Origin: a halophilic archaeon SHRA6
Lineage (GTDB): Archaea > Halobacteriota > Halobacteria > Halobacteriales > Haloferacaceae
Direction of reading: 5' to 3'
Length of the DNA: 64,000 nucleotides
NCBI GenBank assembly: GCA_005239175.1
Contig: SOPS01000004.1
Location: 1 to 64,000 of the forward strand
The notes beneath the pieces are model-generated. The model ran no database searches. It was not told where the DNA came from and saw only the letters and a program-made list of their open reading frames with translations. Made by a program: the position numbers and the translations under genes. This document shows positions 251 through 26,893 of this stretch, piece after piece; position 1 is the stretch's first letter, and each line of letters begins with the position of its first letter.

Positions 251-722
251 TACTTCACATAGTGGTGTTCGTAAGAACCCTCTGGCACCCAGCGCGTAGT
301 CCAAAAATATCTGTGGTTAATTCTAAAATCGAGGATATAACGCTGTTCGGTACCCGCGGGGACACTGTCGTTAGGACAGACGTGGGCGACGTAGTCGCTG
401 GTGGCAACGATGGTTACCCTTTGATGAAGTTGCGAATCGGCACGATTCTGGCGTCGGCCGTTACCGGCCTCACCGCGGTTGACATCCAAATCGGCGGCGC
501 TGTTGAAATCATCAAAGATTGATAGGTACAGGTTGCTGAATACAGAGCGCGTGTCTTGCAGAAAGAGCGATGTTCTATCGATCCGCGGATTTATCCAGGG
601 ACCGCTTGCACGCTACGTCTTCCTCGAAACGCTCACTGTGACAGTGGGATTCCTGCCGCCCACCCTGCGACGAATTCTATCCCACCCCTGCCCTTTATTT
701 TCTGACTTCCCCAAGTCGAACT

Positions 723-1619
723 ATGACAGGTGATATGGAGGCCCGCAAGCTTGGCGACACCGATCAGGAAACCACGGTTGCCACGTTCGGCGCCATTGCC
801 CTGAACTGGCTCGAACAGGAGGGGGCCAATCAGATGATCGAACACGCTCTCGATCACGGTGTGAACCACTTCGACGTAGCACCCCAGTACGGCGATGCCG
901 AACTCAAACTCGGGCCAAAACTCCGCCAGCACCGTGAGGACATCTTCCTCGGCTGTAAAACCCAGAAACGCGAGTATGATGGTGCTCGGCACAAACTCGA
1001 GCGCTCGCTCGACAGACTCGGCATCGACACGATCAATCTCTACCAGGTCCACGGGCTGGAGTATGAGGAAGAACTCGACACCATCACGGGTGAAGGCGGC
1101 GCCCTCGAGGCGTTCCGCGAGGCAAAGGCCGAGGGACTGATCGATCACATCGGCCTGACGAGCCATGGGGATCCTGACCTCATCATAGACGCGATCGATC
1201 GCATCGACGATCTCGAGACGCTGATGTTTCCGCTGAACCCCGTCGTGATGGCCAAGACCGACGCCGAGTACGACTACGAGGCAGTCCTCGAACGCGCCAA
1301 CGAAGAGGGCCTCGGGACGTTGATCATCAAGGCCTTCGCGAGAGGCCCCTGGCCCTCAGAGGCCGAACTCCCGGTCGAGGACCGCCCGTACGCGAACTGG
1401 TACGAGCCCGTCGATACGCCCGAAGAGATGCGCGAGCGTTTCAACTTCGTGGCCTCTCAGGACGTGACGAGCGTCGTGACACCGGGCGATCCCAAGCTCG
1501 TTTCGATGGCCTTCGACGCTGCCTCGCGGTACGAGCCTCTGGACGAAGCCGCCCAGCGATCGCTGATCGAGAAGTTGCGCCACGAAGACTCGCCCGTCCC
1601 CGAGCAACTTCACCACTGA
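723..1619 (+). CDS. Aldo/keto reductase family oxidoreductase (cassette passenger)
   Basis: Predicted NAD(P)H-dependent reductase with a (beta/alpha)8 barrel, 298 aa. The AKR tetrad is visible: D51 and Y56 in FDVAPQYG, K79 in GCKTQ and H110 in YQVHG. The segment SSxKR-type cofactor tail is poorly conserved, so cofactor choice is open. A TATA-like TTTATTTTC at 694-702 lies 21-29 bp upstream of ATG 723, fitting a leaderless start there; ATG 735 is the alternative. The methyltransferase gene follows 7 bp after the stop, so the two are probably one transcript. Both lie inside the mobile cassette. The substrate is unknown. Confidence 0.85.
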   Translation: MTGDMEARKLGDTDQETTVATFGAIALNWLEQEGANQMIEHALDHGVNHFDVAPQYGDAELKLGPKLRQHREDIFLGCKTQKREYDGARHKLERSLDRLGIDTINLYQVHGLEYEEELDTITGEGGALEAFREAKAEGLIDHIGLTSHGDPDLIIDAIDRIDDLETLMFPLNPVVMAKTDAEYDYEAVLERANEEGLGTLIIKAFARGPWPSEAELPVEDRPYANWYEPVDTPEEMRERFNFVASQDVTSVVTPGDPKLVSMAFDAASRYEPLDEAAQRSLIEKLRHEDSPVPEQLHH

Positions 1620-1626
1620 TCGCTCC

Positions 1627-2349
1627 ATGTCAGTTCCACAGACTGTCGAAACCGCTCTCGCGGACCGCCCGGTCGAGGGTGCGACCTGCCTCGAGGCGGG
1701 AGCCGGCGTCGGTAATACCACCCGCGGGCTACTCGAACAGGGCGCAGGCCACGTCTACGCAGTCACCAACAACGCCGAACACGCCCGGGACCTCAGGTCC
1801 TCTCTTACTTCCCACGAGGCGTCCCGGACCTCGATCCTGGAAGCGGACCTTCAATCCACACCTCTCGAGTCGAACGCGGTCGATCTCATCACCGCACATG
1901 GCTTGTGTAACGTTGTTCCACCCGCTGTTCTCGGACGGATTTCGGCAGAGCTAGCCCGGATTGCCGCCCCTGGGGCACACCTCGTCGTTGACGATTACGA
2001 GCCGCTCCCCGACGACGCGGCTATCAGCGACCTCTTTGCCGTCGAAAACGCTGCGTCGGAGCTGGCTGACGGCACGCCCGCGCTCACGTTCTATCCCTCT
2101 GATATGTTGCGCCGGGTTTTCGAAGGCCACGGTCTGACCTTTGATCGCAAACGAATCCTGCTTGATCCCGTCCCCTGGACGATCTCTCACGTCGAGGCTC
2201 ACGCTAACCTCGCTCGGAAGACTGCGAGTAATCTCCCCCGAAGGCTCGCTGATCCCCTCGCCGCCGAACTCGATCGGCTCGTCGAAGAGATTGGGTCAGA
2301 GTCGACAGGGACGATGTACAGTCTCGCGTTTCGGATGTCCGAGCGGTAG
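1627..2349 (+). CDS. Class I SAM-dependent methyltransferase (cassette passenger)
   Basis: Product of 240 aa. Motif I of the Rossmann-type SAM-binding fold is clear near residue 23 (LEAGAGVGNTTRGLL), followed by the acidic end of strand 2 region and motif IV-like DLITAHGLCNVVPP near residue 85. There is no signal peptide or membrane segment. The gene is 7 bp behind the aldo/keto reductase, suggesting co-transcription and perhaps action on the same small molecule. The acceptor cannot be read from sequence. The gene ends 112 bp before the right end of the mobile cassette. Confidence 0.8.
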   Translation: MSVPQTVETALADRPVEGATCLEAGAGVGNTTRGLLEQGAGHVYAVTNNAEHARDLRSSLTSHEASRTSILEADLQSTPLESNAVDLITAHGLCNVVPPAVLGRISAELARIAAPGAHLVVDDYEPLPDDAAISDLFAVENAASELADGTPALTFYPSDMLRRVFEGHGLTFDRKRILLDPVPWTISHVEAHANLARKTASNLPRRLADPLAAELDRLVEEIGSESTGTMYSLAFRMSER

Positions 2350-2469
2350 TTCGGCGTACTTCAGTATCGTTCTCGCCTGTCGATACCGCTCTGCAGAATA
2401 CACACTCTGTATTTAGCATGGCGTCAAGAACATACCATCGATTGAGGATTTCAACAGTGCCAAATCGGC

Positions 2470-3282
2470 TTAATCAAGACCGACCTGCGTAGTGTTCGAG
2501 ACGACATTCAAATCAGCTCTGACATCCATAATCACTCTTTACGACATTTTCTACGATCGGTTTCGCGTCGATGACCAGTGTAAATGATATCATATGTAAC
2601 AGTTTGATATCTTACTACGTAGTATCATTTAAAATTAATTATAGGCGAGATATACGAATCAAATAATATACTTTGCTGTGTACTATTTAAAAAATCAACA
2701 CAAAGTGATATTTCAGTATATATTAAATGAAATATATAAACGACAATCGACTGCAGAATGGATAACCCAATTATGACTAAAGTGATACAATTGGCTAATA
2801 TCCCGAAATCACCGATTTCTGGCGTACAACAAGACACCTACGTCTCGCCATCGGCCGCCTGTTCCTTTTACCATGATAATTCTACGTCTGGTTAAGACTC
2901 ATTGAGCAAGTCTCGATGCATTCTACCCAACTTACACAAAGGCCACTTAATCTTCGTCTGACATAAGCAGCCGGTGTTCCCGATTAATTGAAAATTAACT
3001 CCATTACACACCTATCTATGTAATCTCTTGAGCAGTGTGAGTAATCTCGTATTACCACGGATACATGATCTTGTTTTCGTAGATGTCCTTACAGTACCTA
3101 TCTCTTCTCAGACTGTCTCTTTACCGTGGTGCTGGAGCAATTAACGGTCCCAGACTCCGAGCCAGTGCCGCTGCAGGCGCCCTCATGGGTGCCTTTTTAG
3201 CAATCTTTGGGAGGATGTTTTAGAAACTGAGGTCGTCCTTGGTCGAATTCCACCATGTCAACCATTCGTACGATCGAATCAG
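2470..3282. other. AT-rich intergenic stretch without a convincing gene
   Basis: About 810 bp, clearly AT-richer than the flanks around 2580-2760, with short ORFs on both strands but no coding signature that I trust. No RNA gene, transposase or repeat was recognised. It begins with the right-hand target duplication of the cassette. Confidence 0.5.
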
Positions 3283-7837: not shown

Positions 7838-8401
7838 GTTTAGTTTACTCCGTGCTCAAGATCAGTAGGACGGAGAATAAATCTATGGGCTACTATTCGG
7901 TTGATCGCCTCGTCTGCTGGCGTTCTTCCGATGCGTGGTTGATACGGTTTCTGATGATCTGCGTACGGATGCACTGGTCTGGCCAGTTGCGTGCGATCGA
8001 TCGACTGGTTCCTTACGAATCTTGATCGTAGTCATGTGACTGGTGTCAGGTCGTGTGGAGTGGGACGAACTCTCGGTGCCGGATAAATGCACGGATATCG
8101 GGGTCACTGGCAAACTGCTGGAGATTTTCCTCGTCGTATCTTCTGTCCCTACTCAAGACCGGATTGTCGCTGTATTCTGTTTCACGACTCGGGGCGTAAT
8201 TCTCGGATCGCGCTTTCGTGTCGCTGTCACCTGAATGATGGACAGCGCTGTCGCAGTATCAACCAACAGTGTGATCTTTGTCCATTGTATTCTCAGTAGT
8301 AAATATACTTTTTTTGATAGTTCTGTTTCTGAATAGGGAGGAATTTTCATTCAGTGGGGAAATCCTTAATGATTTTACATGCAAGAGTCGGCTATTCTAG
8401 T
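7838..8401. other. Intergenic stretch with no gene seen
   Basis: About 560 bp. A likely TATA element for the next gene is GTAAATATACTTTTTT near 8299-8314. The short ORFs overlapping it are not supported by start context or composition. Confidence 0.4.
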
Positions 8402-9970: not shown

Positions 9971-10314
9971 GGCTCTGTTGAAATCCCATTCTTCAGACAT
10001 ATTCTTGCCTGAAACAGCCGGTCGATGAGAGCTGCGAACACAGCGATCAGCCGGAGCCACACAAGATTAATACTACATGAGAGATTATCTCAGTTATGAC
10101 CGAAGAACAGGGACGAACCCTCGGAATTATCAGTATCATCTTGTCAGTCTTGGCATTGTCGTACACTGTCCTTTGGTTCGTTGGGGTGGTCTGAACTGAG
10201 TCCGAGAGCCAGCTCGCGGATATTTTCTGCCACTGTACTAATCGCTTCGTGAGTCCCCTGTACTGACCGCGACTGGGTCATAATATATCACTTGCTGAGG
10301 ATTTCAACAGAGCC
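9971..10314. mobile_element. 344-bp IS6-like microcassette with 8-bp target duplication
   Basis: Ends are perfect inverted repeats over GGCTCTGTTGAAATCC. The flanks are the same 8 bp on both sides: TAACGAGT at 9963-9970 and 10315-10322. It has no transposase and is too short to hold one. It contains a promoter-like ATTAATACT (10066-10074) and a 32-codon ORF. The tips match those of the cassettes at 496-2461 and 17432-18481. It landed right in front of a now broken membrane-protein gene. Confidence 0.85.
10096..10194 (+). CDS. 32-residue predicted membrane microprotein inside the microcassette
   Basis: ATG 10096 to TGA 10192-10194. The peptide begins MTEEQGRTLGII and continues as one hydrophobic helix of about 20 residues (SIILSVLALSYTVLWFVGVV), so it is probably a single-span membrane protein. 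A TATA-like ATTAATACT is centred 26 bp upstream, which fits a leaderless transcript. It is the only gene in the cassette. The function is unknown; it may be a passenger or a toxin-like peptide, which is speculation. Confidence 0.5.
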   Translation: MTEEQGRTLGIISIILSVLALSYTVLWFVGVV

Positions 10315-17431: not shown

Positions 17432-18481
17432 GGTTCTGTTGAAATCCTTGAGAACTGATAGGGTCGGCGTGCGAGATACAGAGGTTCTATACAGCAATCG
17501 CTAACTGTGGATTGCAAACTTTTACCGATGAATGAATTAGTCAGTAGCGATGTAAATTACGGATCGGCCAAAAACATGACAAAGTCTTCCACTGCTTGTC
17601 CTGACAGTGCTCCCGCTGCACCGCCTACAGACCCTCCAATATACGACCCTCCAATATACGCACCAATTAATACACCCGCTAAGCTGGAAATATAGGACTT
17701 TGACACATGTATAATCCAGTTTGGCGCGTAATCCTTTACGATTTGTCTTAAATAAGTAGAGAGAATTACTGGCTCATCGTCTAACCGATCTTCTGCATTT
17801 CTTTCTAAATCTTGTCTTACTTGCTCGAATGATTCTATTCCTTCTCCTACCTCCTGCTTAATTGCATTCCAGTTTTTATTTAGCTGGTTTTCTGAGATTG
17901 TGATAGCGTAAGCTACGGATTCCATAAAATCGTTACTAATCTTTTTTAGCCGAGAAAGTATTGGTGAGTTTCGGAGAGAGAAGATGAATTCTTCGAATAA
18001 AATGTCATTCAGACGAGTTCCTTGTCCATATTTTCGGGCGTATCTTCTGCTTGTTGTTGATTTAGAGATAGAATCATAAATTGTGGAGTAATCGTCAATG
18101 AAATCCTCAGCCCTGAAGGGTGAAATTTCAAATTGATCTATTTTTCCCTTCAATTCTTCGTATCGGTAGAATGAGCTGTAAGCGCTAAAATAATCTCTCA
18201 CCGATGCTTCTTCAATAAGTTCGTCTTCGGACAATAATTCATAAAATGAATGCGAAATGTAGAATGAAATCTCATTATTATGGTTTTCAATCATTTCAAA
18301 CGTAGATTCATAGCTATTGTCCGAGAAAAGAGAGGGGTCCAACATTGTTTTAATGTCGTCTGTCATGCCATATCCATGTTAGCCAAATGTATTAAATCAT
18401 ATGAGCCCACGTGCAAGGTTCGCGCTCTGTATTCAGCACGGCTCCAAGCACATATCACCGGTTGAGAATTTCAACGGAGCC
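17432..18481. mobile_element. Third IS6-like cassette, around an unknown gene, nested in the integrative element
   Basis: The left end reads GGTTCTGTTGAAATCC and the right end, reversed, GGCTCCGTTGAAATTC. The left-end subterminal ATACAGAG box lies 39 bp in, as in the 496-2461 cassette; the right-end box (GCTGAATACAGAGCGCG, 18421-18437) lies 44 bp in, again as there, and is identical to the box at 535-551. The flanking 8-mers are ACCCATGG and ACTCGCGG (5 of 8 equal), so the target duplication is decayed or lost. The interior holds one minus-strand gene and no transposase. Confidence 0.65.
17557..18366 (-). CDS. 269-aa protein of unknown function with a Gly-rich hydrophobic C-terminus (cassette passenger)
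   Basis: I do not recognise the family. The N-terminal ~190 residues are polar, rich in Ser, Asp, Glu, Tyr and Phe, starting TDDIKTMLDPSLFSD and FYISHSFYELLSEDE, a pattern vaguely like PIN-type folds (unproven). The last ~45 residues hold AGVLIGAYIGGSYIGGSV, a glycine-zipper-like segment often found in membrane-inserting proteins, then GAAGALSGQAVEDFVMFLA. A TATA-like TTTAATAC (rc of 18389-18396) lies 23-30 bp upstream of ATG 18366. It is very AT-rich beside its neighbours. Possible defence or toxin role is inference from mobile context only. Confidence 0.6.
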   Translation of the reverse strand: MTDDIKTMLDPSLFSDNSYESTFEMIENHNNEISFYISHSFYELLSEDELIEEASVRDYFSAYSSFYRYEELKGKIDQFEISPFRAEDFIDDYSTIYDSISKSTTSRRYARKYGQGTRLNDILFEEFIFSLRNSPILSRLKKISNDFMESVAYAITISENQLNKNWNAIKQEVGEGIESFEQVRQDLERNAEDRLDDEPVILSTYLRQIVKDYAPNWIIHVSKSYISSLAGVLIGAYIGGSYIGGSVGGAAGALSGQAVEDFVMFLADP

Positions 18482-19704: not shown

Positions 19705-20424
19705 TTATAGATCGCGTTCTGTGAAGATCAATCGGGTGCTGTTCTCCGCTAACCATTCTGAATGTGATTTATATTCTGGATCGTACTCGGCAACGAGCGA
19801 CCAGAACTCGTCAGTATGGTTCTGTTCCCTAAGATGTGCTAATTCGTGAATTACGATGTAATCAACTACATCGGGCGGAGCCATCATTAATCGCCAATTC
19901 AGGCCTAACGTTCCGGTCGTGGAACAGCTCCCCCATTTCGTCCGTTGGTTCCGGATTTCGATCTGATCATATTCGACCCCCATTTCTTCGGCGAAATAGT
20001 CCGCACGGTCTTGGAAATAGTCGCGCGCTTCTCGCTGATACAGGGTTTCCAATGCCCGCTGTATTGAAGTCTGGTCAACGTGGTGTTTTGCTAATCGGAA
20101 CTCGTAATCAATCACCGCCGAAGAAGACCGCTTCTCAACAATAATCTCGAACGGCTCACCGAGATACGGAAACGTCTCACCGACAACGAACTCTCGATCT
20201 GGGATCTGCTCGCGGTACTCGTCGTACTTTCGTTTCTTGTCTATAACCCATCCCGCGTTCTCTTTCAGAAGCTCCGAGGGAGGTGTCTCGTCAGCTTCGG
20301 GAAGGACAACCCGGACACCGTGAATATCAATATCAATCCGGGGTTTGGATGCTTCCCGGCTATGTTGAACATCGTACTCAACGGTATGTCCCAACAATTC
20401 CACAGACTTGGCGCTTTCAGCCAT
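19705..20424 (-). CDS. M48/YgjP-like zinc metallopeptidase of the R-M operon
   Basis: Product of 239 aa of the YgjP (DUF45) type. The C-terminal part has the zinc motif HELAHLREQNH (HExxH plus a third His) and TKWGSCSTTGTLGLNWRL, the family's W-G-S-C signature. There is no membrane helix. ATG 20424 overlaps the hsdR stop by 8 bp, so it is translationally coupled and last in the operon. Genes of this family frequently accompany type I restriction systems; the role there is not established, and turnover of HsdR is one suggestion. Confidence 0.85.
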   Translation of the reverse strand: MAESAKSVELLGHTVEYDVQHSREASKPRIDIDIHGVRVVLPEADETPPSELLKENAGWVIDKKRKYDEYREQIPDREFVVGETFPYLGEPFEIIVEKRSSSAVIDYEFRLAKHHVDQTSIQRALETLYQREARDYFQDRADYFAEEMGVEYDQIEIRNQRTKWGSCSTTGTLGLNWRLMMAPPDVVDYIVIHELAHLREQNHTDEFWSLVAEYDPEYKSHSEWLAENSTRLIFTERDL

Positions 20425-23377
20425 AGTTCTGAATGAGGTAATTCCGAATGTCGTCAACAAACTCGTTGTCGTCCCGAATCAAGTGACCGAGGTCGTGGTT
20501 TTTCACCAATACATCGAGAAGGATCCGCTCGATTTCCCCGATAGTTTGCTGGTTCATCTTCCATCCGGGATAGCCGCGATCGACTCGCTTGGTGAACTGG
20601 CCGACAATCTCCTCAGCGACCTCCTCCGCCTGTTCGTCGGATTCGATCAGGTCAGGGGTCTCCTCAGTCAAATGGGTATAGATCGCAAACTCGGCGTCGT
20701 TCATCCCCCGTTCGGCGGCTTCATCCTCAACTACTAACACCGCTTCTTCAACTGATTTGAGAGCTTCGACAGCCTCGGGATCGTCGATCCGATCTCCTTG
20801 CCACCGCTCAACAATATCCGTTACTCGTTCGCTGAGTCGTTTGTATCGGGGATTCTGGTTCTCTCGGGGATGTAGATGTTCACGAGTCGCGTGAGCGATC
20901 TGGGACGCCTTAACTCCCGGATTATCGAGATCTTCTACGTCTTCAAGATATTCCTCGCCGAGTTTGTACGTGGGGAAGTCCCGTTTGATCTCTGGAATAT
21001 CAACGTGTTTATCGATGATCTTTCGGGTCTTCTCTTGCATCTCATCTTCCGGGCTATCCATGCCTGACGTGATCCGTTTGAACGCTACGTGAATCCGACT
21101 TATCCACTTGTACTTCCGTTCGATGCCTTCGGTTACCAACCGAGCATCGGGAGCAACCGCTTCGTAGAGGTTCTGGAGCCGACGAAAGTTTTGTTTGAAC
21201 TCTCGGCGTTCTGGATGTGTACTTACCCGTTCGATAGCCGCTGATGTGGCCTCTTGGGTGTCTTCTTTCGGGATCCCGTCGAAAATATCCAGTACCCGCT
21301 CGGTCTGTTCAACAAGCTCATCGTAGAGTTCGTCCTTATCTCGGGCGGCGTAGGCTTTCGTCTCGGCGTCGTAGTCAAGCGCCTCGTCAATATTCTCGAA
21401 GACCCCTTGGAAGTCCACAATCTCTCCGTTCTCCTTACCGGAGGCTGGTCGGTTCGTCCGGGCAATAGCTTGCATCAGATTGTGGTTCTTCAGGTTTCGA
21501 TCGAGATACATCGTCTTCAGGATCGGGGCGTCGAAACCCGTCAAGAGCATATTATGGACGACGAGGAGTTTGGGGTTCTCGTCCTGTTTGAACGCCTTGA
21601 CGATGCTGTCCCGCTCCTCTGAGTCCGTGTGGAACTGATTGATGAGGTCTGGATCGTCTTGGGTTGAGGTGTATAGAACTTCGACCTCGTCCTCACCGCG
21701 TCGTTCAATAAGTCGCTTCCCGTACATTGCTGCCGATCGCCGGCTCGGAGTGACGACCATTCCCTTCCAGCCGTTGGGAGCCACCTTCTCGCCGTAGTGG
21801 GAATCAATTTCTTCGACAGCCCGATTGACGCGGGGTTCGATTTCGGCCAAAGTTGTCGCGGTGACACCGTTCCGGATTGCCTCGCGCTTCTCGTCCGTTG
21901 TCATCCCGCGAAACTCTTGTTCAAATTCCTCATCCAGCCCAGCCTCGTCGATCACCCATTCCATTTGGTGACGAAGCGTGAAGTAGACAGGAAGGATCAG
22001 GCCGTCGTCGATCCCCTGTTTGACTGAGTATCGATGAAGGTAGTCTTCGCCCTCGGGGGAAAACTCGCGGAAGGTATTACGATCCTCGTGCTTCTCGCCC
22101 TCTCTGACCGGCGTACCAGTAAACCCGAAGTGGCTACAGTCGGGGAGAGCTGCGTCAAGACGGCTTCCGAGATCGGCTTCCATAAACCGGTGAGCCTCGT
22201 CGGACATTACGATTACCTCGTCGTTCCCTTGAGTGTCCGGCTCCACGTCTTGGAACTTCTGGATCGTCGTGAGAACGAGTTGGCTACTTCCTTCCTCGAT
22301 TAATTCTTGGAGGTGATCGATGCTTTCGGCTTCGGTCCATCGCTCCAGCGAGAGGTTCGCCAGTTGGTCCCTCATTTGGGAGTTCAATTTGTCCGTATCC
22401 ACGATCACGAAGACTTGCGGATTACGGGAAATGGTAGAGCGGGACAAGAGGTTCTGAGCGGCGTACAGCATCGTGAAAGACTTCCCCGACCCTTGGGTAT
22501 GCCAGATCAATCCCCGGTCGTGGACGCCCTCTTGGACTCTCTGAAGGATTCTGTTGACCGCATAGTATTGCATATACCGGGGAACGATCTTGGCGTCACC
22601 GCCGGCTCGCCGCTCGAAAAAGACGAAGTGTTTCAAAAGGTCCAGTATCGTTTCGGGGTTACAGAGTGCGGTGACGGCTTGCCGCATCTGGTTGTCGTGT
22701 TGAAATTGTTCGGGGGCGTCGTTCCATGGTTCGTAGAACTCTGTGGGTGCCCCTACGGATCCGTAGCGGAGTTCCATGGTATCTGCGGCGATGTTGAACA
22801 GGCCGGGAACAAACAGCCGTGGCACGTCATCCTCGTACGCGTGTAGATCGCTAATCGCGTCGTAGTAGTCGTTGTCTTGAGCGAGGCTTTTCAGCTCCAT
22901 CGTCACGATCGGGATCCCATTCACGAACAGGTTCACGTCCGGACGAATGGTAGTTCCCCGAGAGATTGAGAACTGATTGACTGCGTGGAACCGGTTTGCG
23001 TCCAGATCGTCGAAATCAATCAGATCTACGTAGATCGTCTCCGTTCCGGCGCGGGCGTTCTCGACGGTGAAGGTTTTTCCCTTCGTGAGTAGCTCGTGAA
23101 ATTCCTGATTGCCCGTGAGCAGATTGTCATGGTCGAGATCGCGTCGAAGTGAGGTGAGGAACTTCTCAACGTTGTCTTCGGTGATCTTCTCGTTGAGTTC
23201 GACGACTTGCTCGGCCAGTAGGTTCCAGTAAATGACTTCGTTGCTTCGTCGATCGTAGGCTGAATCGAGAACTTCTGCGCCCCGCCCGCCGTCCATGCCA
23301 TGTGTTTCCCAACCGGCAGCGTCGAGCCACGAGAGAAGCGATCGTTCGACACCACCTTCGTTAGGAATACTAACCAT
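20417..23377 (-). CDS. hsdR: Type I restriction enzyme, HsdR subunit
   Basis: Full length, 986 aa. The N-terminal nuclease domain has RPDVNLFVNGIPIVTMELK (PD-x-ExK, about residues 140-160). The translocase motor has Walker A HTQGSGKSFTM, the DEAH box MSDEAHRF, SF2 motif III FGFTGTP and motif VI MQAIARTNRP. It cleaves DNA after ATP-driven translocation when the HsdM2-S complex meets unmethylated sites. Its ATG overlaps the stop of the upstream membrane-protein gene by 1 bp. No frameshift is seen, so the system looks functional. Confidence 0.95.
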   Translation of the reverse strand: MVSIPNEGGVERSLLSWLDAAGWETHGMDGGRGAEVLDSAYDRRSNEVIYWNLLAEQVVELNEKITEDNVEKFLTSLRRDLDHDNLLTGNQEFHELLTKGKTFTVENARAGTETIYVDLIDFDDLDANRFHAVNQFSISRGTTIRPDVNLFVNGIPIVTMELKSLAQDNDYYDAISDLHAYEDDVPRLFVPGLFNIAADTMELRYGSVGAPTEFYEPWNDAPEQFQHDNQMRQAVTALCNPETILDLLKHFVFFERRAGGDAKIVPRYMQYYAVNRILQRVQEGVHDRGLIWHTQGSGKSFTMLYAAQNLLSRSTISRNPQVFVIVDTDKLNSQMRDQLANLSLERWTEAESIDHLQELIEEGSSQLVLTTIQKFQDVEPDTQGNDEVIVMSDEAHRFMEADLGSRLDAALPDCSHFGFTGTPVREGEKHEDRNTFREFSPEGEDYLHRYSVKQGIDDGLILPVYFTLRHQMEWVIDEAGLDEEFEQEFRGMTTDEKREAIRNGVTATTLAEIEPRVNRAVEEIDSHYGEKVAPNGWKGMVVTPSRRSAAMYGKRLIERRGEDEVEVLYTSTQDDPDLINQFHTDSEERDSIVKAFKQDENPKLLVVHNMLLTGFDAPILKTMYLDRNLKNHNLMQAIARTNRPASGKENGEIVDFQGVFENIDEALDYDAETKAYAARDKDELYDELVEQTERVLDIFDGIPKEDTQEATSAAIERVSTHPERREFKQNFRRLQNLYEAVAPDARLVTEGIERKYKWISRIHVAFKRITSGMDSPEDEMQEKTRKIIDKHVDIPEIKRDFPTYKLGEEYLEDVEDLDNPGVKASQIAHATREHLHPRENQNPRYKRLSERVTDIVERWQGDRIDDPEAVEALKSVEEAVLVVEDEAAERGMNDAEFAIYTHLTEETPDLIESDEQAEEVAEEIVGQFTKRVDRGYPGWKMNQQTIGEIERILLDVLVKNHDLGHLIRDDNEFVDDIRNYLIQNYG

Positions 23378-23712
23378 TAGAATTCCCTCATTCCAGCCTC
23401 ATAGTTAGTCGTCCAAACGGCTAATCCGACAAAAACATACACAAGTACTGTCAGAAGTGCTTTACCGGGTCTATCGAGTGCTACAGCAACCAAGGGAATC
23501 ATGGCATTTATCAGTTCAATAGCCAATATCCCGATTATAGTTCCAAATTCTGTGGGCGAGTCAGAGTACAGCGGGGGTAGAATGTTGATATATGCAAATA
23601 GCACGTTCACTCCAAATGCGACAGATGCACCGGTGGAATACATCCTACGCCATTGACTCGGTCCGGCCAGAAGATTCCCGATAGCGTAGCTTGCTCCACG
23701 ATCACTAACCAT
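23377..23712 (-). CDS. Small membrane protein embedded in the type I R-M operon
   Basis: Product of 111 aa with about three or four transmembrane segments (GASVAFGVNVLFAYINIL, IIGILAIELINAMIPLVAVA, LLTVLVYVFVGLAVW). No family recognised. Its start overlaps hsdS by 8 bp and its stop overlaps the hsdR start by 1 bp, so it must be co-translated with the R-M genes. Type I operons do not normally encode a membrane protein. It could tether the complex at the membrane or be an added effector; both are guesses. Confidence 0.75.
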   Translation of the reverse strand: MVSDRGASYAIGNLLAGPSQWRRMYSTGASVAFGVNVLFAYINILPPLYSDSPTEFGTIIGILAIELINAMIPLVAVALDRPGKALLTVLVYVFVGLAVWTTNYEAGMREF

Positions 23713-25087
23713 ACTGGGTGATTTCGTCGGCCACCTCTATGTTAGTGTCGGTTGTCCTGACTGTTCCCGAGAGGAGGTCTTGCATAAGACCTTTCTTGAG
23801 ATGTTGAAGTTCTTTTCTGTTTTCTCTGTTTGAATATATTATTGTATGCACATTCTCAATCAATTCTTTTATTTTCTCTTTCTCGTTGTCTCTCGGTTCA
23901 ATCAGTCCCATTTTTTTAAGATCAGTCACAGATGTTTGGGGCTGTGCCGTGCCGTAGCTCATCGCATTAATTTGTTTTTGGAATATCTGAGAACGGAAAA
24001 AATAGTAATAGTATTCAGGATTAGTAACTCGGCTCTTTGGGCGTAGTATCACCATCCCAGAATTAATTCTTATATTGTCATAATCTACTTCCTCGTCATA
24101 GAGTCCAAAATTTCCAACCGTTCCTCTTGTAGTCATAACAATATCTCCTCGCGATAACTTTCCTTTTCTCAGCTCTGCATCTTTTTCTTTTGATATAAAT
24201 TCTGTTTCATGAAATTCTAAACCTTCCTTGGTCACGTTATTTGCACTCAAAAATAGGCAATATCCGTCTTCACAAAACTCTGATTGCTTTGGATAGTTTT
24301 TACCTCGATCTCCATCTATAATATCAAATTTATCGGGGATAGTCTTTAGACTCCAATCATTAGGAATAGATGTTTTAATAGGACCAAGTCTCACTTCTTT
24401 AGTATTTTCATGGCCGTAATAGCCATTGGTGAAAACGTCCTGTTCGATACCGGCACGAACACTCCTTACCTTTTCGATAACTTTCTCAGTCTTTTGAATC
24501 ATCTGATCGACGGTGTAGAGCACGCTGGCGATTTTGCGCTGTTCTTCAAGTGGCGGTACGGGTATATGGAAATTCTCTAATTTATCACTTGATAGGTATG
24601 AAATAGTTGAACCAGTTGCCAGTTGATCTAATTCTTCCGCACAGTCCGAAATCGCATAATAGAGATAATGAGTGTTGATGCTGTCCCGAGTTACAATTCC
24701 CGCAAATGTCTGATTAGATAATAGTTCTCTTGTAGTGATTGCACACACCCCCATGGTGGTACTACAAGAACACATAAGAGTGCCTTCAGGAAATGATCGG
24801 AGATTCATTTCGCCCATCAGTTCTCGACTGACGTACCTTTCACCGTCTATCGGTTCCGAGATATATACACCATCTAAATCCTCAATTCGAACCCATGGAA
24901 TATCTCCATCAAACCGAGTCGGCTTATCACGTTGAGGATAGATTATTTCAGACGTATGATTGACGATCGGATCAAAGTTCCAATCACCTGGTATTGTCTT
25001 TTTTGTTGGTCCCCATCGGACTGATTGGCGCTCTGGACTATCGGACACCTCGATGAACTCGTTAAGTGTCACTTCCTTTTCATTCAT
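23705..25087 (-). CDS. hsdS: Type I restriction specificity subunit, HsdS
   Basis: Product of 460 aa with two target-recognition domains (about 18-180 and 235-410), each followed by a conserved helical dimerisation segment: PPLEEQRKIASVLYTVDQMI after TRD1 and EKIKELIENVHTIIYSNREN after TRD2. Both TRDs open with a similar W-P-T-K/S-IP-DW pattern (TIPGDWNF, SIPNDWSL). The subunit sets the bipartite DNA target of both methylation and cleavage. It is markedly AT-rich, especially TRD2, as is common in exchanged specificity genes. It overlaps hsdM by 8 bp. Confidence 0.95.
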   Translation of the reverse strand: MNEKEVTLNEFIEVSDSPERQSVRWGPTKKTIPGDWNFDPIVNHTSEIIYPQRDKPTRFDGDIPWVRIEDLDGVYISEPIDGERYVSRELMGEMNLRSFPEGTLMCSCSTTMGVCAITTRELLSNQTFAGIVTRDSINTHYLYYAISDCAEELDQLATGSTISYLSSDKLENFHIPVPPLEEQRKIASVLYTVDQMIQKTEKVIEKVRSVRAGIEQDVFTNGYYGHENTKEVRLGPIKTSIPNDWSLKTIPDKFDIIDGDRGKNYPKQSEFCEDGYCLFLSANNVTKEGLEFHETEFISKEKDAELRKGKLSRGDIVMTTRGTVGNFGLYDEEVDYDNIRINSGMVILRPKSRVTNPEYYYYFFRSQIFQKQINAMSYGTAQPQTSVTDLKKMGLIEPRDNEKEKIKELIENVHTIIYSNRENRKELQHLKKGLMQDLLSGTVRTTDTNIEVADEITQYG

Positions 25088-26582
25088 AGTTCAGGGCCTC
25101 CATGTGCTGAGTCATCCGCGCCTCGATCTCGTCGTGTTCGGCCTGTAACTCCCGTAATGTCGCTAATTCCTCGGCCACGTCAATGTCCTCCTCGGGTTCG
25201 GTCGTATCTACGTACAGCGCGATGTTCAGGTTGTAGTTGTTCTCTCGGATCTCATCGAGAGACACCGTACGACTCACGCGCTCCTCAGTTACCCACTCGC
25301 GGAAGTTCTCAACGATGTGGTTGAGGCCGTCCTCGGTGAGTTCGTTTTGGTTCGACAACTCCTCGTAGAACGCGTCGTCTGCGGCGTGGATGAACTGCAC
25401 TTCGCTCTCGCGCTCGGTAGTCTTGTCTGTATTCAACACGAGGACAGCAGAGGGAATCGCGTTGTTCTGGAAGAGGTTCTTCGGAAGCCCGACAATGGCC
25501 TCCACCATATCGTTCTCCAGCATCGACTTGCGATACCGCGACTCGTGCTTGCGGAACAGCACACCGTGAGGAATGACGATCGCGGCCTTGCCGCCCGCCT
25601 CATCGCGATCGGGACGCATGAGTTGTTTCGCTATATGCATAATGAAGGCGTAGTCTCCTCGATCGGCACGCGGAAGTTTCTCGTGCCAGTCGAATCGGTC
25701 ATACGGGTCGTCTTGGAGATCATCTTTCGCCCAATCAGCCGAGAACGGGAAATTCGCAAGCACTCGATTGAAGCGAGTGAGTTCGTTCGCGTCGTCGTCG
25801 GTGAACGCCGGACTTGATAGGGAGTCTTCCCGCTCAATCTTCCCTTCCAGCCCGTGAATGGAGAGATTCATTTTTGCGATCGCCGCTATGTCTGGGTTGA
25901 TCTCCTGTCCGGTGAACGTGAGTTTGGTGGGATCCCCGCCCTGTTCCTCGCGGTAGTATCGGGCGGCCTCAATGAGCATCCCGCCTGAGCCTACTGTTGG
26001 ATCGTGGAACGTCATCCCGTCATTGAAATCGTCTACAAGCCGGACACAGAGATTGACAATCTGGGGCGGTGTAAAGAACTGGCCTCCGGATTTACCTTCT
26101 TCCTCGGCGAAGTGGCGGACTAAGTCCATATAGGCCTCGCCGAGCATATCAGGGGGAACGCTATCTCGATCGAGGTCGTACTTCGAGAGGTGTTCGATGA
26201 GCTTTCCGAGCCGATCGTCGTTGAGGGCGTCGGCGTCGATGTAGTCCGCCCGGAAGACACCTTTCAGTTCGGGGTTCTCCTCGTTGAGTACGTCAAAAGC
26301 TTCATTGAGTGTCTGATCGATGTTGTCGCTAACGGCGCGAACGTCTTCCCATAAATAACCTTCTGGGACGACAGGAATCTCATATAGGTTGTTCCGCCGG
26401 GCGAAGTCCTCGCCGTATTCTTCAAGATTCTGTTCGTACTGTTTCTCGAACTCATCAGAGATTGTCTTGTAGTAGACAAGGGGGAGAATGTACTCCTTGT
26501 AGTCAGTCGGATCAACAGCGTCACGAATTATATCGGCGCATTTGAACAGGTGGGATTCGAGATCGTTCAACGAGAGAGGCAT
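25080..26582 (-). CDS. hsdM: Type I N6-adenine DNA methyltransferase, HsdM
   Basis: Product of 500 aa. The N-terminal HsdM_N helical domain starts LNDLESHLFKCADIIRDAVD; the methylase core has SAM motif I in DPTVGSGGMLIEAARYY and the catalytic motif IV as NFPFS, the NPPF variant. Together with HsdS it methylates adenine in the target. ATG 26582 (MPLSLNDL) is chosen because family homology starts there; the open frame runs further upstream through promoter DNA. It is first gene of the five-gene operon. Confidence 0.95.
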   Translation of the reverse strand: MPLSLNDLESHLFKCADIIRDAVDPTDYKEYILPLVYYKTISDEFEKQYEQNLEEYGEDFARRNNLYEIPVVPEGYLWEDVRAVSDNIDQTLNEAFDVLNEENPELKGVFRADYIDADALNDDRLGKLIEHLSKYDLDRDSVPPDMLGEAYMDLVRHFAEEEGKSGGQFFTPPQIVNLCVRLVDDFNDGMTFHDPTVGSGGMLIEAARYYREEQGGDPTKLTFTGQEINPDIAAIAKMNLSIHGLEGKIEREDSLSSPAFTDDDANELTRFNRVLANFPFSADWAKDDLQDDPYDRFDWHEKLPRADRGDYAFIMHIAKQLMRPDRDEAGGKAAIVIPHGVLFRKHESRYRKSMLENDMVEAIVGLPKNLFQNNAIPSAVLVLNTDKTTERESEVQFIHAADDAFYEELSNQNELTEDGLNHIVENFREWVTEERVSRTVSLDEIRENNYNLNIALYVDTTEPEEDIDVAEELATLRELQAEHDEIEARMTQHMEALNYE

Positions 26583-26893
26583 AGGAGAACCCTCTACACC
26601 GACCACTAAATGTGCTACGATAGGATAGGGAGTCGGGAAGGTCGGTACGGGCGAGAACGGCGCTGACCGATCCGCACTTCTGAAACGGCTGTTAGCTTTC
26701 CTAAGTATGACGCCTTCTCGCTGATTAGGTACTCCGGTACCAGCGAGAAGCGCGCCGATCCATTCAAGCCGTTTTCCACCCGAAGGGTCCACAGATCCGG
26801 GAATGGAGACTGATTACGATTCTTAGCGGTTTCCGACTGTGACCCCGCCTTCATAGAATATAATATACAGGGCTTTATATACCCCCCCTCCCA
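26583..26893. promoter_or_regulatory. Promoter region of the R-M operon with an inverted CAGCGAGAAG pair
   Basis: CCTTCTCGCTG (26713-26723) and CAGCGAGAAG (26741-26750) form an inverted pair 17 bp apart, the same motif as in the origin-like block. Position upstream of hsdM suggests a regulator or element-specific binding site. AT-rich sequence near 26857-26880 probably belongs to the terminator or end of the neighbouring gene. Confidence 0.5.

Follow-up and report, generated by a model that had tools for sequence, protein, structure and literature searches.

Two ordinary-looking enzyme genes near the start of the window, by which we mean the whole 64,000-nucleotide stretch of contig SOPS01000004.1 of the halophilic archaeon SHRA6 analyzed here, are enclosed by inverted ends and a short direct repeat. 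The locus raises the question of whether metabolic genes can travel as a mobile element that encodes no transposase of its own, and, if so, which enzyme moves them. Our reading, which we hold with high though not complete confidence, is that positions 496–2461 form a non-autonomous mobile insertion cassette that belongs to a modular gene-capture family and is mobilized by an IS5-type transposase acting in trans.

The focal cassette, its passengers and its insertion site

The cassette spans 1966 bp, with two enzyme ORFs inside and the inverted ends outside, and the perfect 8-bp duplication directly abuts both ends (Table 1). The terminal repeats are GGCGCTGTTGAAATC on the forward strand (496–510) and GGCACTGTTGAAATC on the reverse strand (2447–2461); their inverted match runs to 20 bp (90%), and a second, subterminal inverted match pairs 534–562 with 2390–2418 (79%). 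A subterminal near-palindrome, GCTGAATACAGAGNGNGTATTCAGC, was observed in the A- and B-type ends at these same two intervals and in many other ends. Neither the ORFs nor the profile matches between 496 and 2461 included a transposase. The original prediction had placed the ends, the perfect 8-mer, the reductase and methyltransferase and the missing transposase as we found them. By inspection, a D-Y-K-H-like set of residues appears to be in place in the reductase (D and Y in HFDVAPQYG, K in GCKTQ, H in QVHG), as does a glycine-rich motif I (EAGAGVG) in the methyltransferase. With a candidate TATA-like box 22–29 bp upstream of the ATG at 723, it is plausible that the cassette carries its own promoter.

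Table 1. Coordinates of the focal cassette, its surroundings and related elements in the genome of the window (G000); positions given without a contig are those of the window, and C3 is the contig with the focal cassette.
Feature	Position	Strand	Target duplication	Remark
Left remnant of the interrupted lipoprotein-like host gene	316..495	+		Paralogue G000:C1:565779 aligns gaplessly over the joined site
Left copy of the 8-bp target duplication, AAATCGGC	488..495			This 8-mer also borders the cassette in sister species G001
Left element end, B-type: 15-bp terminal repeat and ~55 bp conserved subterminal sequence with GCTGAATACAGAGCGCG	496..566	+
Candidate TATA-like box TTTATTTT ahead of the reductase gene	694..701	+		Inferred from sequence inspection alone
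Aldo/keto reductase, 298 aa, passenger gene 1	723..1619	+		PF00248, 68 bits; 72–77% identical chromosomal orthologues
Class I SAM methyltransferase, 240 aa, passenger gene 2	1627..2349	+		PF13649/PF08241 (Methyltransf_25/11); adjoins the reductase elsewhere in haloarchaea
Right element end, A-type: 15-bp terminal repeat and ~55 bp subterminal sequence	2391..2461	-
Right copy of the 8-bp target duplication, AAATCGGC	2462..2469
Right remnant of the same host gene	2470..2574	+		Same paralogue alignment
Focal cassette	C3:496-2461		8/8
Related non-coding 344-bp element (MITE), same terminal repeats	9971..10314 (C3)		TAACGAGT	Empty site in sister species
Related 1050-bp element, 269-aa ORF	17432..18481		none
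Alpha/beta hydrolase cassette	C3:100328-101551		8/8 or 7/8
GNAT cassette	C1:80094-80896		8/8 or 7/8
91-aa ORF element	C1:707684-708196		8/8 or 7/8
Composite	C2:110664-116073		8/8 or 7/8
DUF7387 + HicA cassette	C2:187323-188011		8/8 or 7/8
BrkB cassette	C2:469900-471332		8/8 or 7/8
Luciferase-like monooxygenase cassette	C2:499152-500437		8/8 or 7/8
281-aa ORF cassette, without Pfam family	C2:656805-658129		8/8 or 7/8

Joining the flanks restores a reading frame homologous to a 304-aa lipoprotein-like gene that stands uninterrupted at another locus of this genome, and their alignment, which gave 59% over 44 residues in the search, runs across the insertion point with zero gaps. As judged from this alignment, the empty site of the focal cassette is one by paralogy and not by orthology; the sole congener compared, G001, has the cassette in place, its reductase gene cut off near a contig end, and no orthologous empty site was found there. 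Because the same site is occupied in the sister species, the insertion is old. The empty-site comparison suggested in the original prediction thus yielded an uninterrupted paralogue, together with empty sites for sibling elements, and none for the focal site itself. A plasmid search with the cassette returned chromosome-like reductase/methyltransferase pairs and lone ends, and no further cassette copy.

Relatives of the reductase occur in about 20 of the genomes searched. Of 19 other loci inspected, 14 have the methyltransferase (55–63% identical) next to the reductase, one of them by a match of only 74 residues. None of these other reductase loci is bounded by an end pair, although in L087 a single end stands 0.8 kb upstream. 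Finding both genes without the ends in relatives had been proposed as grounds for abandoning the cassette; the genes are indeed found so, and the cassette stands, since a pair that is an ordinary chromosomal one elsewhere is here a captured one. The reductase and methyltransferase would simply be whatever genes stood between two such ends.

Recurrence, cargo and movement of elements with these ends

Within the window, the end motif was matched 12 times at up to three mismatches against 2.95 expected (0/100 shuffles), and across the 3.36-Mb genome GGYDCTGTTGAAATC has 36 sites at up to one mismatch against 1 for its reversed control, most of them pairing as inward-facing ends. Besides the elements in Table 1 that have a duplication, five paired-end elements of this genome lack a matching one. 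No transposase was found between any paired ends in this genome. The conserved stretch of each end is about 70 bp. By eye, the ends can be sorted into types A, B, C, D and E; these types are descriptive rather than a validated classification, as sorting by regular expression was only partly successful. Elsewhere in the window, a type I restriction-modification-like operon lies beside a SprT-like metalloprotease (19705–26792, ORFs named by eye).

Exact matches to the ends occur in 93 of 147 haloarchaeal genomes and to the reversed control in none, and a 29-base A-type end has 37 matches in 84,980 species genomes, all 37 in haloarchaea. Among the first loci, 109 inward end pairs lay within 7 kb, 57 of them with duplications of at least 7/8, a level that mismatched, unrelated flanks reach in about 0.2% of cases under a null that includes true pairs. 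Once later loci were added, the number of distinct elements with 7/8 or 8/8 duplications came to 74, 27 with a transposase match and 47 without, proportions that are not population estimates because loci were picked by ends or transposases. Their 70 cargo ORFs of at least 100 aa fall into 67 clusters; of the three clusters with several members, two each represent one cassette present in two genomes, and the third arises from double counting of a nested element. The cargo includes BrkB, GNAT, hydrolases, an SBF/ACR3-like transporter, a beta-lactamase-like hydrolase, a CAAX protease-like protein, a uracil-DNA glycosylase-like protein, PIN with AbrB-like proteins, HicA pairs, and a siderophore-binding protein with a flavin reductase. 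The mobile passenger-enzyme cassette originally proposed, and the search for other copies of its ends with different passengers, were therefore borne out by recurrence in this genome and in related haloarchaea, usually with 8-bp duplications; the accompanying suggestion that such cassettes are rare in archaea was not, as they are common in haloarchaea.

Several further observations concern individual elements. The 74 duplications suggest an AT-rich target with a purine first (61/74) and a pyrimidine last (61/74). Toxin-antitoxin-like pairs occur in cassettes at L028:1602-2114 (DUF7387 + HicA) and L178:1452-2167 (AbrB-like + PIN), and such cargo could stabilize its cassette. Hairpin-like MITEs of 124–125 bp with the same ends and perfect duplications were seen at L119, L071 and L077, and genome G004 has three end pairs of this size. 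At L230, one cassette is nested in another (436–1803 and 532–1190), each with its own perfect duplication. Viral contigs gave seven exact end matches, six without a partner end and probably due to chance, and one a true element: a 916-bp element with an HNH endonuclease ORF and the perfect duplication TGGTACTC in a predicted viral contig (L252:9928-10843), which is a possible vehicle between cells. No match to the transposase was found in the phage collection.

Evidence of movement comes from sibling elements. The sister species G001 has uninterrupted sites for the 344-bp element, with a single TAACGAAT, and for the GNAT cassette, with a single ATCGGCGA; the BrkB site is empty there too, but its intergenic stretch has diverged. 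The BrkB cassette lies at another site in G001 (95% identical), with homology beginning exactly at the element end and a different other end, and a cassette on contig C42 of G001 is common to Halalkalirubrum salinum N1521 (NZ_SRSG01000037). Genome G128 and Halorubrum salipaludis both hold a transporter cassette, 98.4% identical from end to end (1249 bp), whose flanks are unrelated and whose duplications differ between the two.

The probable parent transposase and rival readings

Transposases between these ends belong to the IS5 family (NF033579, 225 bits against a cut-off of 140). An end lies 52 bp before the transposase start codon in 30 of 30 close transposase loci examined, and at exactly this distance in 26 of 26 full-length elements with a duplication. 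Relatives at 82–83% identity carry the PGAP names ISHla2 and ISHxa2, which appeared in no paper found in our literature search. Pairwise alignments of the transposase elements usually share ~830–890 bp (the end and the gene) and then break off, and the far side, of 338–2405 bp, varies from element to element; the autonomous elements are therefore modular too. No close intact transposase was found in the genome of the window, the best match being 43% identical and the rest fragments. Two overlapping weak IS5 transposase matches with an internal stop lie near the 344-bp element (window 8025–8299), apparently a decayed IS5-type gene.

The original prediction called the ends IS6-like, which would make the locus an IS6-family element or compound structure moved by an IS6 transposase. 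IS6 terminal repeats read GG-CTGTTG, which the ends resemble, and IS6-type genes are present in this genome. IS6 likewise makes 8-bp duplications (PMC7986276). However, the search for an IS6 transposase between these ends found none of the genome's four PF13610 matches there, and all transposases examined between such ends are of the IS5 family, so that an IS6 origin was rejected as very improbable. An ordinary operon with chance inverted ends, to which the normal pairing of the genes elsewhere might point, has practically no probability left given the excess of end sites over the reversed control, the perfect duplication and the split host gene.

Two further readings accept the ends as those of a mobile element. 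The cassettes with an A and a B end might form a separate system with its own unsampled transposase, merely sharing terminal bases with the IS5 elements: their subterminal sequences are unlike the E and C ends of transposase-bearing elements, and a different enzyme could serve them because no transposase was found between A and B ends among the elements examined. We regard this as unlikely in view of the 15–17 shared terminal bp, the identical 8-bp duplication length and the A+C element L120 with its perfect duplication, which are the only links of A and B ends to the IS5 enzyme, and of C+D elements as a bridge. Alternatively, the locus might be a former passenger-bearing IS (tIS) whose transposase was deleted in place and which never moved without one. 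Passenger-bearing copies are frequent, as 23 of the first 57 elements with duplications carry the transposase, most with another ORF, and decayed transposases occur in L196 and L106, but the focal cassette has neither an E end nor a transposase remnant, transposase-less elements make up most of the 74, and two transposase-less sibling cassettes with cargo each occupy two different sites, all of which renders deletion in place quite improbable.

Proposed capture and relation to known elements

Mobilization in trans by an IS5-type transposase would account for the ends shared with IS5 elements, the duplication, the diverse cargo and the gapless focal paralogue. The A- and B-type ends, with their 15–17 bp of shared terminal repeat and conserved subterminal sequence, would be recognized in trans by a transposase of the ISHla2/ISHxa2 kind, which would cut or copy out anything between two suitable inverted ends and insert it with an 8-bp duplication. 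Capture, we infer, takes place when two neighboring ends around a host gene serve as one element. The 5.4-kb composite (L041:2165-7574) consists of two cassettes and intervening genes; because it shares one outer duplication, GGAATTGA, while its inner ends lack matching flanks, the outermost pair of ends acted as a single element. By eye, its intervening genes are halocyanin-like, a regulator, a lipoprotein and UspA-like. A 177-bp A+C element is enclosed within one outer duplication in L139 and stands alone in L120, and L196 has a transposase remnant beside its passenger. These four loci may be read as snapshots compatible with capture through pairing of neighboring ends. Because a close intact transposase is absent, the focal cassette is probably immobile in this genome unless a transposase re-enters.

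By its structure, the focal element qualifies as a mobile insertion cassette, with inverted ends of a known IS family, passenger genes in place of a transposase, and a duplication of the length seen in the transposase-bearing elements. It does not encode an IS5 transposase, as autonomous elements with the same ends do, and no PF13610 transposase accompanies these ends as in IS6; it has ~70-bp ends and no flanking transposase where a compound transposon has two complete IS copies, and its length and two enzyme ORFs set it apart from short, non-coding MITEs. The element type is known from IS231/MIC231 of the Bacillus cereus group (IS4 family), which has constant ends, IS copies with passengers next to the transposase, and passenger cassettes that lack it (Chen et al. 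1999, cited in PMC6542083; PMC2266710). The elements described here differ in their IS5-family transposase, archaeal hosts, 8-bp duplications (10–12 in IS231/MIC231) and nearly always different cargo. Haloarchaeal MITEs (e.g., ISH2) are likewise non-autonomous, trans-mobilized and have only termini in common with the parent, but those reported are short and nearly all non-coding (PMC3119063, PMC10264941), whereas the focal cassette holds two full enzyme genes. From ISHla2/ISHxa2 (IS5-like), to which the family is linked by an 82–83% identical transposase and its spacing from ends of the same kind, the focal cassette differs in subterminal sequence, in its two metabolic genes and in lacking the transposase. 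The literature searched, which included few subscription papers, yielded no account of archaeal IS5 elements with passengers. Integron gene cassettes are also interchangeable, mostly single-gene cargo with common ends, but here DDE transposition produces target duplications without a common insertion site or array, and the 8-bp duplications disfavor an integron identity.

Gene transfer in haloarchaea is frequent, and to our knowledge its small single-gene vehicles are poorly known. Short common-ended cassettes, present in the majority of the genomes examined and with almost one gene family per element, provide a concrete and testable vehicle, one that is easily overlooked because annotation displays an ordinary gene with no transposase as a flag. 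With dozens of such cassettes across haloarchaea, the observation is more general than first supposed. It is possible, though on balance doubtful, that one IS5-type system serves as a general means of gene capture and shuttling across haloarchaea, in which any two compatible ends are readily paired; if so, single genes such as enzymes, transporters and toxin-antitoxin pairs would be continually packed into exchangeable cassettes, forming a DDE-transposase counterpart to the integron cassette pool.
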